Origin: Halomonas sp. 328
GTDB taxonomy: Bacteria; Pseudomonadota; Gammaproteobacteria; Pseudomonadales; Halomonadaceae
NCBI RefSeq assembly: GCF_015645095.1
Contig: NZ_JADOTW010000004.1
Coordinates: 62,001 to 126,000, forward strand
Length of the DNA: 64,000 nucleotides
Direction of reading: 5' to 3'
Numbering within the stretch: position 1 is the first letter of the stretch; each line of letters opens with the position of its first letter. Position numbers and translations under genes: made by a program. Shown here one piece after another: positions 23,389 through 41,093 of the stretch. The notes beneath the pieces are model-generated. The model did no database searches. It saw only the letters and a list, made by a program, of their open reading frames with translations, and was not told where the DNA came from.

Positions 23389-24600
23389 CTAACTATCTTC
23401 CAGCAGCCATAGGCACTCGAGGCGATCCCCCGGCGTGACCTCGCTATGGGCCGGCACCACGGCCAGGGCATTGGCCGTCACGCAGGAGGAGAGCACCCCG
23501 GAGTTCTGGTCGGCGAAGGCCTCGGCCACCGGCCCCTCGGGGGTGAAGCGCAGGGCCACGCGCAGATAATGGCGGCGGGCCTGGGTGCGGGTGGCGAAAT
23601 CGGCCCGTGCCCAGACGCTGGTGAGGCGTTCGAGGGCGGGGCAGGCCAGCAGGGCGCCGAGCAGCGGGCGCAGGAAGAGCCAGGCGCCTACATAGCCGGA
23701 GACCGGGTTGCCGGGCAGGCCCACGAAGCGGGCCTCGCCGCCATTAGGCCGCGGCAGGCGCCCCAGGGCCAGCGGCTTGCCGGGACGCAGTGCCAATCGC
23801 CATAGATCGAGTCGCCCCAGGGATTCCACCGCCGGCTTGACGTGATCCTCCTCGCCGACGCTGACGCCGCCGGTGGTAATCACCAGGTCCGCCTCGCCGG
23901 CCGCCTCCTGCAGCAGCCGTCGAGTGGCTGCGAAGTCGTCCGGGGCCTTGGCCAGGCAGACCAGTTGGCCACCGAAGCCCTCGATCAGGCGCGCCAGCAT
24001 GGGGCGATTGGAATTGTAGAGCTGTCCCGGGGCCAGGGGGTGGCCGGGTTCGACCACCTCGTCGCCGGTATTGATCAGGGCGACCCGTGGCCGACGGCGC
24101 ACCTTCACGTCGGTGATGCCCTGGCCGGCCAGGTGACCCAGGGCCGCCGCCTCCAGGCGCAACCCGGCGGGGAGCAGCTCGCTGCCGGCAGTGACATCGC
24201 GACCCCGACGGCGGATATTGTCGCCGGCGGTGAGTTCGGCCGGGAAGCGGATGCCGGACTCGGTCACTTCGACTCGCTCCTGCATCACCACGCAGTCGGC
24301 GCCTCCGGGTACTTCGCCGCCGGTAAAGATCCGCGCGCAGCTCCCCGGCGCCAGGGGCTCGGCCGGCTGGCCCGCGGCGATGCGCTGGCTGATCGGCAGG
24401 CATCGACCGGCATCCGCCAGGCGCAGGGCATAGCCATCCATGGCGCTGTTGTCGAAACCGGGGACGTCCTGGCGCGCCGGCACCGGCTCGGCCAGCACCC
24501 GCCCCGTGGCTGAGTCGGCGGGGATCGTCTCGCTTTCCAGCGGCACGACGCCCTCCAGCAGCGCCGTCAGCGCCGCTTCGATCGGCGCCAGCTCAGCCAT
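23389..24600 (-). CDS. moeA: Molybdopterin molybdenumtransferase MoeA
   Basis: Inserts molybdate into adenylylated molybdopterin, the last step of Mo-cofactor synthesis. The 403 residues contain the MoeA N-terminal motif DVPGFDNSAMDGYAL (about 43-57), the MoCF motif TTGGVSVGEEDHVK near residue 245 with the conserved aspartate/glutamate, and GLPGNPVSGYV near 300. The start at 24600 follows GAGG and overlaps a duplicate of the moaB stop (ATGGCTGA). Supply of Mo cofactor fits the formate dehydrogenase encoded at 27-30 kb. Confidence 0.94.
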   Translation of the reverse strand: MAELAPIEAALTALLEGVVPLESETIPADSATGRVLAEPVPARQDVPGFDNSAMDGYALRLADAGRCLPISQRIAAGQPAEPLAPGSCARIFTGGEVPGGADCVVMQERVEVTESGIRFPAELTAGDNIRRRGRDVTAGSELLPAGLRLEAAALGHLAGQGITDVKVRRRPRVALINTGDEVVEPGHPLAPGQLYNSNRPMLARLIEGFGGQLVCLAKAPDDFAATRRLLQEAAGEADLVITTGGVSVGEEDHVKPAVESLGRLDLWRLALRPGKPLALGRLPRPNGGEARFVGLPGNPVSGYVGAWLFLRPLLGALLACPALERLTSVWARADFATRTQARRHYLRVALRFTPEGPVAEAFADQNSGVLSSCVTANALAVVPAHSEVTPGDRLECLWLLEDS

Positions 24601-24682
24601 GGGTGCCTCGCTCGGGGATCACGAGGTTGGCCTGCGATAGAGAGTGGCAGGGCTTGTGTCGGCCGGGGATAAACTCAGCCAT
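24593..24682 (-). pseudogene. Diverged second copy of the moaB 3' end fused to a moeA-like start
   Basis: Between moaB and moeA lies a 29-codon open frame. It starts ATG GCT GAG, identical to the first codons of moeA and preceded by the same GAGCGAGGCACCC leader, then runs through FIPG into RHKPC...[12 protein letters not shown] and TGA. Those last residues match the moaB C-terminus ([18 protein letters not shown]) apart from a three-residue insertion. The final 21 bp are identical to the moaB end but the preceding codons differ mostly at third positions (GCC AAC CTC versus GCT AAT TTG). The copy has host-like GC-rich codons while the gene's own tail is AT-rich. Best read as a deletion scar between two moaB-moeA copies. 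Confidence 0.8.
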
Positions 24683-25205
24683 GGGTGCCTCGCTCCGGAA
24701 TCACCAAATTAGCGTAATTACACGGCTTATGCCGGCTATCCAGCTGTTCGGCGAGGATACCGTCCCAGGCGGTGCGACAGGCGCCGGTGGAGCCGGGCAG
24801 GCAGAACACCACGGTGGCGTTGGCCAGGCCCCCCAGGCAGCGACTCTGGATGGTGGAGCTGCCCACCTCCTGGTAGGAGAGCTGGCGGAACAGTTCGCCG
24901 AAGCCCTCGATGCGCTTGTCGAGCAGCACGCCCACCGCCTCCGGGGTGGAGTCGCGGCCGGTAAAGCCGGTGCCACCGGTGGTCAGCACCACCTGGACCT
25001 CGGGATCGGCGATCCAGGCGGCCACCTGGGCACGAATGCGGTAGACATCGTCGGCGATGATGCGCTTCTCCACCAGCTGGTGGCCGGCGCCGCCGAGGCG
25101 CTCGACCAGGGCGTCGCCGCTGCGGTCATCGGCCTCGGTGCGGGTGTCCGAGACGGTCAGCACGGCGATACGCAGGGGCACGAAGGCGTCGCGATCCTGG
25201 CTCAT
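24675..25205 (-). CDS. moaB: Molybdenum cofactor biosynthesis protein MoaB
   Basis: MogA/MoaB-family protein that binds or adenylylates molybdopterin. The 176 residues begin [20 protein letters not shown], with [17 protein letters not shown] near 88 (the molybdopterin-binding motif) and [16 protein letters not shown] near 138. The C-terminus [18 protein letters not shown] is encoded with unusually AT-rich codons for this genome. The start at 25205 overlaps the stop of the DUF1244 gene by 4 bp. The next gene in the transcript is moeA, reached across a duplicated tail. Confidence 0.93.
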
Positions 25206-38269: not shown

Positions 38270-41017
38270 GTGAGCACACGTTTTCTCAGACATTTCTTCG
38301 AGCCGCGTAGCCTGGCGGTGATCGGGGCCTCGGAAAAGCCCCACTCCATGGGCGGCCTGGTGATTCGCAATCTGCAGGAGGGGGGCTTTCCCGGTCCGAT
38401 CTGGGCGGTCAATCGCAAGGGCTACGAGAGCGTCCACGGCCTGCCCTGCGTGGCGCGGATCGAGGAACTGCCGGAGGTGCCGGACCTCGCGGTGATCTGT
38501 ACCCCGGTGGCGACCCTGCCCAAGCTGATTCGCCGCCTGGGGAGTTTCGGCGTCAAGGCGGCCCTGGTGCTCTCGGGGGGCTCGCACCTGGATGATGCTG
38601 CCGACGGCGAGGGCTCGATCCGCGCCCGGATGCTGGCCGCGGCACGGCCCTCGGGGATTCGCATCCTGGGGCCGGAGTGCATGGGCATCGTGGTACCGGG
38701 GCGCCGCCTCAATGCCACCTATGCCGGTCAGCCGGTGAAGGCGGGCAAGGTCGCTTACCTGGGGCAGTCCGGCATGCTGGGCAATGCCATGATCGACTGG
38801 GCGGCGGGGCGCGGTATCGGCTTCTCGCACCTGGTGACCCTGGGCGACAGCGTCGACGTGCTGCTCCCCGACCTGATCGACTACATCAACCAGTACGCTC
38901 CCGCCCAGGCGTTGTTGCTGCACCTGGAGCGGATTCATGACGCCCAGCACTTCATGACGGCGCTGCGCGAGGCGTCACGGCACCGCCTGGTGCTGGCCAT
39001 CAAGAGCGGCCGCACTCCCGCCTCGGATCTCTCCAATCTGCCGCCCACCCCGGGGGTGGCCAATCGCGACGTCATCTTCGATGCCGCCCTGGCCCGGGCC
39101 GGGGTGGTGCGGGTCAACGATTCCGATGAGCTCTTCGATGCCCTGGAGACCCTGTCGCGGATGAAACCGTTACGCGGCGATCGCCTGGCCATCGTCGCCA
39201 ATGGCCTGGGCCCGGCGATGCTGGCCATCGACAAGCTGGTCAGTGCCGGCGGGCGCCTGGCGGAGTTCACCGAGGAGACCCGGGAGGCCTTGCGCGAGGC
39301 GGACTTCGACATGACCCTGCCGGGCAGGAATCCGGTGGACCTGGGCAGCGATGCCACCCCGGAGCGGCTGGTGGAGGCCCTGGAACGGGTCGCCGCCGAT
39401 GCCAACGTGGATGCGGTGCTGGTGGTCCATGCCCCGACCCGGCTGGCGCCGGCCAGGGCCACCGCCGAGGCGATCATCGCCAACCGCAAGCGCTTCCGGC
39501 GCAATCTCCTGACCAGCTGGATGGGCCTGGAGGAGGCCATGGCGGCCCGCCACGAGTGTCACCTGGCGGGGCTGCCCACCTATATGTCGCCGGAGAAGGC
39601 GATCAAGGCCTTTATGCATATGGTGGACTACCAGCGGGTCCAGGCGCTGCTCCAGGAGACGCCGCCAAGCCTGCCCTTTACCACGTCCGCGGAGAGCCGA
39701 GACCACTGCCGAGCCCTGATCGAGAGGGCCTGGGCGGCGGGGCGCCGGCGCCTGGCGCATAGCGAGACCGCCCAGGTGCTCGCCGCCTATGGTATCGAGG
39801 CGCCGCCGTCCCGTTATCCCGGGACGCCGGAGGAGGGCGAGGCGGCGGCCGCCGAACTGGAGGGCCCCCTGGCCCTGAAGGTGGTGCACGAGCACAACTG
39901 CACGCCCTTTCGCTATCGGCGTCACCCCCACAAGCTCTCCGCCGGGCTGCTGCAGGACCTGGAGAGCCCCGCCCAGGTGGCCGAGGGCATGCGTCGACTG
40001 GCCGACAAGGTGGCGGAGAAGTTTCCCGACAGCCCCGTTCAGGAGTTCTGCCTGCAGCCCATGCAGCGCGGCAAGCACTCGATGCAGCTGTGCGCCGGCA
40101 TCACCCGGGACCCGGTGTTCGGGCCGGTCATCCTGTTCGGTATTGGTGGCTACAAGGTCAATGTACTGGCGGATCGCCAGGTGGCCCTGCCACCGCTCAA
40201 TATCACCCTGGCGGATGACCTGATCCAGCGCACCCATGCTGCCAAGCTGATTCGTGAGCACTCCCGGGACCCGGAACGGGACCTGGAGCGGCTGCGCCGG
40301 CTGCTGGTGCAGCTCTCCCAGCTCGCCTCCGAGCAGCCGCGGCTGCAGGGCCTGGAGATCAATCCCCTGGTGCTCAATCGCGACGGCATGGTGGCGGTGG
40401 ACTTCGCCATGGACCTGGGGACGCCGGCGCGGCATGCCATCATGCCCTACCCGGAGGAGCTCAGGGAGTGGCTGACCCTGGCCAACGGCATGCAGATCGA
40501 AGTGCGGCCGATTCGCGCCGAGGATGCTCCCCTGATCACGAGGTTCCATACCCGGCTCTCCGAGGAGAGCATTCGCTTTCGGTACTTCCACAACAAGGCG
40601 TCGCTCACCAAGCGCGACCTCTCCCTGCTGGCGCATATCAACTACGACCGGCAGATGGCCTTTATCGCCGAACGTCACGGCGAGGAGGGCGAGCGGGAGA
40701 TGCTGGGCGTGGTCCGAGTATGGAACGACCCGGACAACATTCGCACCGAGTTCTCCATCATCATCCGCGATGACCTCCAGGGCCAGGGCCTGGGCAGTCT
40801 GCTGATGAACAAGATGATCCGCTACTGCAAGGGGGTGGGGACCCTGGAGATGGTCGGCCAGATCATGGTGGACAATCACCCCATGCGGGCCTTGATGAAG
40901 CACCTGGGCTTCCGGCTGCGCTACAACATGGAGGAGCAGGTGGTGGATGCTACCCTGCGGCTCAACGAACCGAGCAGCGAATGGCAGCGCCACCGCCTCG
41001 ATAGCCAGCCGGACTGA
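38270..41017 (+). CDS. pat: Protein lysine acetyltransferase Pat (ADP-forming acyl-CoA synthetase-like + GNAT)
   Basis: A 915-residue fusion like E. coli YfiQ/Pat (886), which acetylates lysines such as the one in acyl-CoA synthetases. The N-terminal CoA-binding domain (about 1-130, FFEPRSLAVIGASEKPHSMGG) and succinyl-CoA ligase-like domains (to about 460) are followed by an ATP-grasp-like domain (about 490-705) that ends in LEINPLVLNRDG. The C-terminal GNAT domain (about 740-890) has the acetyl-CoA loop DDLQGQGLGSLLM. Whether the synthetase catalytic histidine is lost, as in Pat, I could not judge. Start is GTG at 38270 behind GGGGAG. The last 13 codons are repeated after the stop (41046-41093). 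Confidence 0.9.
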   Translation: MSTRFLRHFFEPRSLAVIGASEKPHSMGGLVIRNLQEGGFPGPIWAVNRKGYESVHGLPCVARIEELPEVPDLAVICTPVATLPKLIRRLGSFGVKAALVLSGGSHLDDAADGEGSIRARMLAAARPSGIRILGPECMGIVVPGRRLNATYAGQPVKAGKVAYLGQSGMLGNAMIDWAAGRGIGFSHLVTLGDSVDVLLPDLIDYINQYAPAQALLLHLERIHDAQHFMTALREASRHRLVLAIKSGRTPASDLSNLPPTPGVANRDVIFDAALARAGVVRVNDSDELFDALETLSRMKPLRGDRLAIVANGLGPAMLAIDKLVSAGGRLAEFTEETREALREADFDMTLPGRNPVDLGSDATPERLVEALERVAADANVDAVLVVHAPTRLAPARATAEAIIANRKRFRRNLLTSWMGLEEAMAARHECHLAGLPTYMSPEKAIKAFMHMVDYQRVQALLQETPPSLPFTTSAESRDHCRALIERAWAAGRRRLAHSETAQVLAAYGIEAPPSRYPGTPEEGEAAAAELEGPLALKVVHEHNCTPFRYRRHPHKLSAGLLQDLESPAQVAEGMRRLADKVAEKFPDSPVQEFCLQPMQRGKHSMQLCAGITRDPVFGPVILFGIGGYKVNVLADRQVALPPLNITLADDLIQRTHAAKLIREHSRDPERDLERLRRLLVQLSQLASEQPRLQGLEINPLVLNRDGMVAVDFAMDLGTPARHAIMPYPEELREWLTLANGMQIEVRPIRAEDAPLITRFHTRLSEESIRFRYFHNKASLTKRDLSLLAHINYDRQMAFIAERHGEEGEREMLGVVRVWNDPDNIRTEFSIIIRDDLQGQGLGSLLMNKMIRYCKGVGTLEMVGQIMVDNHPMRALMKHLGFRLRYNMEEQVVDATLRLNEPSSEWQRHRLDSQPD

Positions 41018-41045
41018 CGCCACGCCCGCCATGACGAGCCGCCTT

Positions 41046-41093
41046 ATGACAGACGAATGGCAACGCCATCGCCTCGATAGCCAGCCGGACTAA
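41046..41093 (+). pseudogene. Diverged second copy of the pat 3' end (15-codon mini-ORF)
   Basis: 38 bp at 41054-41091 match 40978-41015 at 36 positions. Both differences are synonymous in the pat frame (CAG/CAA Gln, CAC/CAT His). The copy ends TAA instead of TGA. The offset is 76 bp, so the copy is out of frame with pat but is preceded by its own ATG at 41046, giving M-T-D-EWQRHRLDSQPD. Only synonymous changes imply the copy was once selected as protein, so it is likely the end of a diverged pat allele. Confidence 0.8.

Follow-up and report, generated by a model that had tools for sequence, protein, structure and literature searches.

Arrays of mini-cistrons between moaB and moeA in Halomonadaceae and their possible origin by duplication of coupled gene junctions

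The genome of Ehrlichia ruminantium is rich in intergenic tandem repeats that hold partial gene copies and vary in copy number. Gene 3' ends are also duplicated by site-specific integration, for example at icd. A review (PMC12548453) reports that stop/start overlap spacings of -4, -1 and -8 are enriched, and names it as a possibility that a short upstream ORF may serve only to deliver the ribosome to the coupled gene. Here we describe short ORFs, hereafter minis or mini-cistrons, that stand between moaB and moeA in a 64,000 nt stretch of Halomonas sp. 328 (GCF_015645095.1, NZ_JADOTW010000004.1, positions 62,001-126,000, forward strand), which we call the window, and in related genomes. A literature search, which took in titles, abstract openings and few subscription journals, found no description of such mini-cistron arrays.

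Organization of the moaB-moeA junction

The moaB gene of the window (24675..25205, minus strand) encodes a protein of 176 aa that matches TIGR02667 moaB_proteo with 274.5 bits (cut-off 222.4) as well as MoCF_biosynth. It is the upstream cistron, and its final codons served as the template for a repeated tail. The downstream cistron moeA (23389..24600, minus strand) encodes 403 aa with MoeA_N, MoCF_biosynth and MoeA_C domains. Between the two, the ORF list contains a mini-cistron of 29 aa (24593..24682, minus strand), for which neither Pfam nor NCBIfam gave a match at E<=1. In brief, the mini consists of a free N-terminal part, the residues RHKPC, an inserted SLSQ, a moaB-like tail of 12 residues and a stop codon.

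An earlier note on this DNA had pointed out that the moaB tail recurs 82 bp further on, in a 29-codon open frame before moeA, and the sequence, the ORF list and a repeat comparison all bear this out. The direct repeat is 40 nt long, with a spacing of 82 and 85% identity; the upstream copy is the moaB tail (24674..24713) and the downstream copy the mini tail (24592..24631), both recorded without strand, and the two tails are separated by only 43 nt of other sequence. The final 21 bp of the copies are identical and the codons upstream of these differ mainly at third positions, as the same note stated: over HKPC and ANLVIP, eight codons differ and all eight changes are synonymous. The homology reaches further into moaB than had been claimed, RHKPC also being common to both. 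When all window ORFs of at least 90 aa were examined for a copy of their own tail within 350 nt downstream, this was found for three genes only, moaB among them, and the moaB tail repeat is therefore well above chance.

The unit opens like moeA (ATGGCTGAG) and closes like moaB. The moeA-like start proposed earlier holds for this opening; beyond ATGGCTGA, the heads of the moaB minis show no significantly greater similarity to the moeA head of their own locus than to those of other loci (28 loci; 213 of 2000 permutations). A local match of 14/15 between the window mini and the moeA head was discarded as too short to count. A moeA-like start and a moaB-like end are what a duplication across the junction of the two genes would give, and an origin of this type is thus the correct one. 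To this extent the origin suggested in the earlier note stands, while its specific version, a double gene pair with an internal deletion, is not supported.

The mini ATG at 24682 lies within the ATGGCTGA that closes moaB (24675..24682, minus strand), and the moeA ATG at 24600 within a second ATGGCTGA that closes the mini (24593..24600, minus strand). The stop and start codons overlap by -8 at both junctions, as in translationally coupled cistrons. Such cistrons also have a Shine-Dalgarno sequence in the upstream tail, and here GAGCGAGG is found 5 nt before the mini start in the moaB tail (24688..24695, minus strand, codons E-R-G) and again 5 nt before the moeA start in the mini tail (24606..24613, minus strand), with predicted duplexes of -8.3 and -8.0 kcal/mol, respectively. 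The codon usage in E-R-G is biased towards CGA for the arginine, which this codon encodes in 36 of 49 minis and 58 of 107 moaB tails, compared with 66 of the 1412 arginines of moaB bodies. Mean anti-Shine-Dalgarno duplex energies are -7.6 kcal/mol for moaB tails before a mini (31), -7.2 kcal/mol for those directly before moeA (70) and -7.5 kcal/mol for mini tails (50), against -2.29 kcal/mol for random moaB-body windows. At the other end of moaB, a small gene 5' of it overlaps it by ATGA (window 25202-25205, minus strand), which gives moaB, too, the appearance of a coupled cistron.

Minis in related genomes

Of 58 related genomes, 52 gave a moaB match, and the best 30 matches were taken as loci. 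To these were added 80 out of 278 confirmed loci from a contig collection and, later, 40 more stretches. This gave 150 loci at the start, including one contig (L133) that has no moaB match, and left 116 distinct loci with moaB; for a tree of moaB and moeA, rows with a moeA shorter than 300 aa were dropped, which reduced the 116 to 105. A second moaB, 55-63% identical to that of the window and located away from the first, was seen in six genomes of the family (G002, G010, G014, G019, G020, G032).

Chained minis homologous to that of the window stand between moaB and moeA in 31 of the 116 loci, with 0-4 copies per locus. At E<=1e-11, a profile built from the minis matched 31 of the 275 genomes of Halomonadaceae, and all 52 places listed are free of internal stops. 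These genomes belong to three of 24 genera, namely those of Bisbaumannia pacifica (the genus of the window), of Onishia taeanensis, and of Halomonas alimentaria and relatives. Among 390 genomes drawn evenly from the order, which include members of the family, the genome of the window was the sole one to match at this threshold. Three further genomes have weaker forms: the sister species keeps a remnant of 12 codons, another genome has a form of 22 codons, and the third a diverged one; five genomes with second matches at E up to 0.1 (L144-L148) have no mini at the locus. The matches are not dispersed like copies of a mobile element: in the 31 genomes they adjoin moaB, with the exception of contig L133, where a gap of Ns precedes the array and moeA follows it. 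It should be noted that minis are also found in the complete genome of H. beimenensis (L060), which rules out the assembly error allowed for in the earlier note.

As at a tandem-repeat locus, the copies are arranged head to tail and their number varies between close relatives, with four in H. maura and one in H. stenophila, and one, two or three in Onishia. H. nitroreducens also has four. Full-length units measure 82-100 nt. All 50 parsed chained minis start at -8, i.e. 8 nt inside the preceding stop, as placed by a script that favours -8 wherever a start codon exists there. Their lengths are 12, 14, 29, 30, 31, 33 or 35 aa, and since all 50 are nevertheless joined at -8, insertions and deletions keep the chain. 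Three odd frames likewise run up to the moeA start. One has 75 codons and contains a palindromic repeat that has been inserted; the others, a fused one of 40 codons and one of 22 codons, come from genomes that are 88 and 72% complete, respectively. In the L133 array the last mini is shortened, and the overlap of its stop with moeA, read by eye, is 4 nt and not 8. The palindromic insert (GGGGTCTGACCCC ... GGGGTCAGACCCC) lies in a second mini (L044:3608-3836), and the frame stays open to the moeA start. Where no mini is present, moaB and moeA can be separated by gaps of 52 and 73 nt, as in two relatives, or of 19-30 nt, as in others, which means that the overlap is not essential everywhere.

On the protein tree of moaB and moeA, minis are present in 30 of 105 rows and scattered in a way that requires at least 16 changes (quick tree with some long branches). 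A mini lost through recombination between tails would vanish without a trace, and gains can therefore not be counted against losses. The middle insertion SLxxQ shared by the minis suggests a single old origin followed by many losses.

We looked for a conserved RNA structure in the minis and found none: individual folds vary, and the alifold consensus over the codon alignment is -1.0 kcal/mol. Rfam gave only sub-threshold matches (E 0.27 and 0.3). A pairing of AAGCCATG of HKPC with the CATGGCT start was dropped as a candidate, being absent from some minis and without consensus pairing.

Other coupled junctions and duplication density

Five further junctions with analogous mini-cistrons were found in the stretches sampled from the window's genome and from that of its sister species, and their units consist mostly of the head of the downstream gene and the tail of the upstream gene. 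Between pilN and pilO (L334 / L335) there are two minis of 29 aa in the window's genome and three of 31 aa in the sister, with -4 overlaps in both; the peptides have diverged and the unit lengths differ. In the first pilN mini the tail equals the upstream gene at 44/44 nt, and the head is matched in pilO at 29/33 nt. The junction between a NUDIX gene and a 2OG-Fe(II) oxygenase gene (L339 / L340) holds two minis, and the sister has a direct ATGA overlap there, the mini-free state. Between YcjX and DUF697 (L345 / L346) a 10-codon ORF is followed by a 35-codon mini; in the sister, the genes are separated with no overlap. At the E1 dehydrogenase junction (L153:10954-11196) two chimeric minis with units of 124 and 118 nt, their starts abutting at +1, are followed by a gene with a matching head. 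Finally, one mini stands at a junction before an aminotransferase gene in the sister genome.

At all six junctions, the unit length plus the overlap is a multiple of three: 82+8 for moaB, 86+4 for pilN, 92+4 for NUDIX, 100+8 for YcjX, 124-1 and 118-1 for E1, and 92+4 for the junction of the sister. The set is made up of the output of a filter, with the moaB junction and the YcjX chain added separately, and coupled and uncoupled ends were sorted by manual reading. Ten uncoupled 3' ends, a tally that omits low-complexity and 180-nt repeats, have unit lengths that leave remainders of 0, 1 and 2 on division by three in 3, 5 and 2 cases. At L257 and L266, both counted as uncoupled, an in-frame ORF starting with GTG also ends at the copied stop.

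Short duplications are frequent in this genus. We counted 18 of 70-105 nt in 815 kb of the window's genome, six in 400 kb of the sister and one in 800 kb of four other genomes, i.e. about 22 and 15 per Mb in the first two samples. This makes the genus (G000, G001) about 12-18 times denser than the four others, in stretches that are not a random draw. With the window itself left out, the own-genome sample still has 15 in 751 kb. One or two of the 18 are low-complexity repeats (L162, L164, L254, L259 and L261 are of this type). A gene 3' end is spanned by 11 of the 18, as judged with a crude gene caller that leaves some 5'-end and intergenic labels uncertain.

Two such tail copies lie elsewhere in the window. 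The last 73 nt of a sodium:alanine symporter gene (PF01235, 13548-15152, plus strand) are repeated 8 nt past its stop, and the copy is in frame, 91% identical and ends at a stop codon; it is absent from the genes read in the four closest relatives. The motif GACACAAGCCCTGC, common to the moaB mini and this duplication, was treated as a coincidence, as in the second it crosses the tandem boundary. The last 40 nt of a CoA-ligase/GNAT gene (38270-41093, plus strand) recur 36 nt downstream (EWQRHRLDSQPD), with two synonymous changes and TGA replaced by TAA. This duplication is also present in the sister, each species having its own variant in both copies, and the copies have thus been homogenised within each species.

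A proposed ribosome relay, its alternatives and known systems

We consider it likely that short duplications arise across coupled junctions and are retained only if ribosomes are still relayed to the next gene. A mini-cistron would have come from a short duplication at the junction of moaB and moeA in an ancestor shared by several genera of Halomonadaceae; its start would stand at the place expected for that of moeA, and its end at the actual moeA start. Ribosomes would finish moaB, restart on the mini, finish the mini and restart on moeA. Because each tail carries the Shine-Dalgarno sequence and the overlapping start of the following cistron, a unit could be duplicated or lost (0-4 copies) without breaking the coupling of moaB and moeA. 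Selection would remove versions that break the chain, recombination between copies would keep the mini tail like the moaB tail of its host, and the same process may act at the other coupled junctions in the window's genus. The mini peptide itself is probably of little importance.

A different and in our judgement unlikely reading is that tandem duplications are frequent and harmless over gene ends, so that the minis serve no purpose and are under no selection. The duplication density, which includes uncoupled gene ends, fits this, as does the scattered presence on the tree. Amino-acid constraint is likewise missing from the free segments. When substitutions among 48 distinct minis were counted on minimum spanning trees, non-synonymous changes made up a share of 0.70-0.80 in the N-terminal part (neutral expectation 0.76) and 0.57-0.76 in the middle part (neutral expectation 0.70-0.71). 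Peptide selection was therefore rejected for these segments, at neutral expectation; the parts that are not shared with moaB seem to evolve as if the peptide were irrelevant, apart from staying open. Two observations argue against debris. No broken mini was seen in the loci examined, which makes the label 'relic' used in the earlier note misleading, and the coupled junctions keep the frame in six of six cases (chance about 0.0014) whereas the uncoupled ends do not. Among 307 changes in the free parts there are no stops, where 6.6-8.2 would be expected (P 0.0003-0.0014), although the test is weak when restricted to closer pairs (P 0.02-0.7 by threshold), and the loci are related, so that the counts are not independent.

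Rather unlikely, too, is copy number as an adaptive rheostat, in which each additional mini would alter the number of ribosomes that reach moeA. The copy numbers of H. maura, H. stenophila and Onishia are consistent with it, and the review cited above says that coupling efficiency is reportedly affected by spacing and Shine-Dalgarno sequence (PMC12548453).

We give little weight to a functional mini-peptide, e.g. a mimic of the MoaB tail that would bind MoaB, MoeA or a metal. The residues C, A, N, I, P and R were invariant in an alignment of 24 rows, and a row added later breaks N. Few amino-acid changes occur in RHKPC and ANLVIP, where the non-synonymous share is 0.21-0.36 (neutral expectation 0.74-0.75) and 0.22-0.32 (neutral expectation 0.70-0.71), respectively. 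However, these two blocks differ from the moaB of their own genome by 0.274 and 0.278 at synonymous sites, compared with 0.467 and 0.536 from other moaBs (0 of 2000 permutations each), and have therefore been homogenised with moaB. The peptide could matter in these blocks, but conversion from moaB explains the low amino-acid change too, and the two are inseparable here. Changes from L to P, V to E and V to G are found in minis and in none of 108 moaB tails, and most of the family lacks a mini. Purifying selection over the full length, as in a small-protein family, is not what is seen: only the blocks shared with moaB are conserved.

It is highly improbable that the mini was left behind by a mobile element or phage whose insertion restored the end of moaB, a reading already disfavoured. 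The tail copy stops at the stop codon, as in integrations at gene ends, but the identical stretch is on the 3' side and not at a 5' crossover, the sequence between the tails is very short, and units follow each other head to tail up to four times.

Finally, we set aside almost entirely the earlier note's ancestral double moaB-moeA, or a foreign moaB: the order of the pieces fits, and the fall in GC from 0.71 in the moaB body to 0.52 in its tail, there taken as a foreign sign, is the third largest among 116 loci, but a tail of lower GC is usual (100 of 116), no second long moaB or moeA match lies in the 1.5-3 kb read around any of the 116 loci, nor do two adjacent pairs occur at any locus read, and the locus groups with that of the sister species on the moaB and moeA tree (SH-aLRT 100), the moaB bodies being 95% identical.

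Returning to the ribosome relay, the comparison of coupled and uncoupled ends suggests that gene-end duplications survive when the path of the ribosome stays open. This would be a concrete and repeated way in which tiny ORFs in operons may arise and persist without a selected peptide. It also calls for caution, as conserved small intercistronic ORFs may reflect coupling and conversion with a neighbouring gene and not the function of a peptide. The natural series of 0, 1, 2, 3 and 4 copies at one locus can be used to ask if ribosomes cross successive overlaps. More tentatively, we speculate that this may be a general route of junction evolution, in which an overlapping stop/start is duplicated into chains of chimeric mini-cistrons whose number would act as a heritable and fast-changing control of protein ratios, with a raised duplication rate in some lineages such as Bisbaumannia.

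Among the known systems, translational coupling by termination and reinitiation resembles the locus in its -8 and -4 overlaps and in the Shine-Dalgarno sequence of the upstream tail; the difference is that here a series of mini-cistrons from a junction duplication stands between both genes. Upstream ORFs and engineered bicistronic designs share the short ORF that possibly just delivers the ribosome, whereas the minis are natural, lie between two genes in 0-4 copies and are homogenised with the upstream gene. Genomes of the Ehrlichia ruminantium type are alike in their many short tandem duplications at gene edges, but differ from what we describe in that a reading-frame filter would act here at coupled junctions and the products are chimeric mini-cistrons. 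Integration at icd also leaves a second copy of a gene 3' end; at moaB the copies form tandem arrays with very short spacers, and no element is seen.
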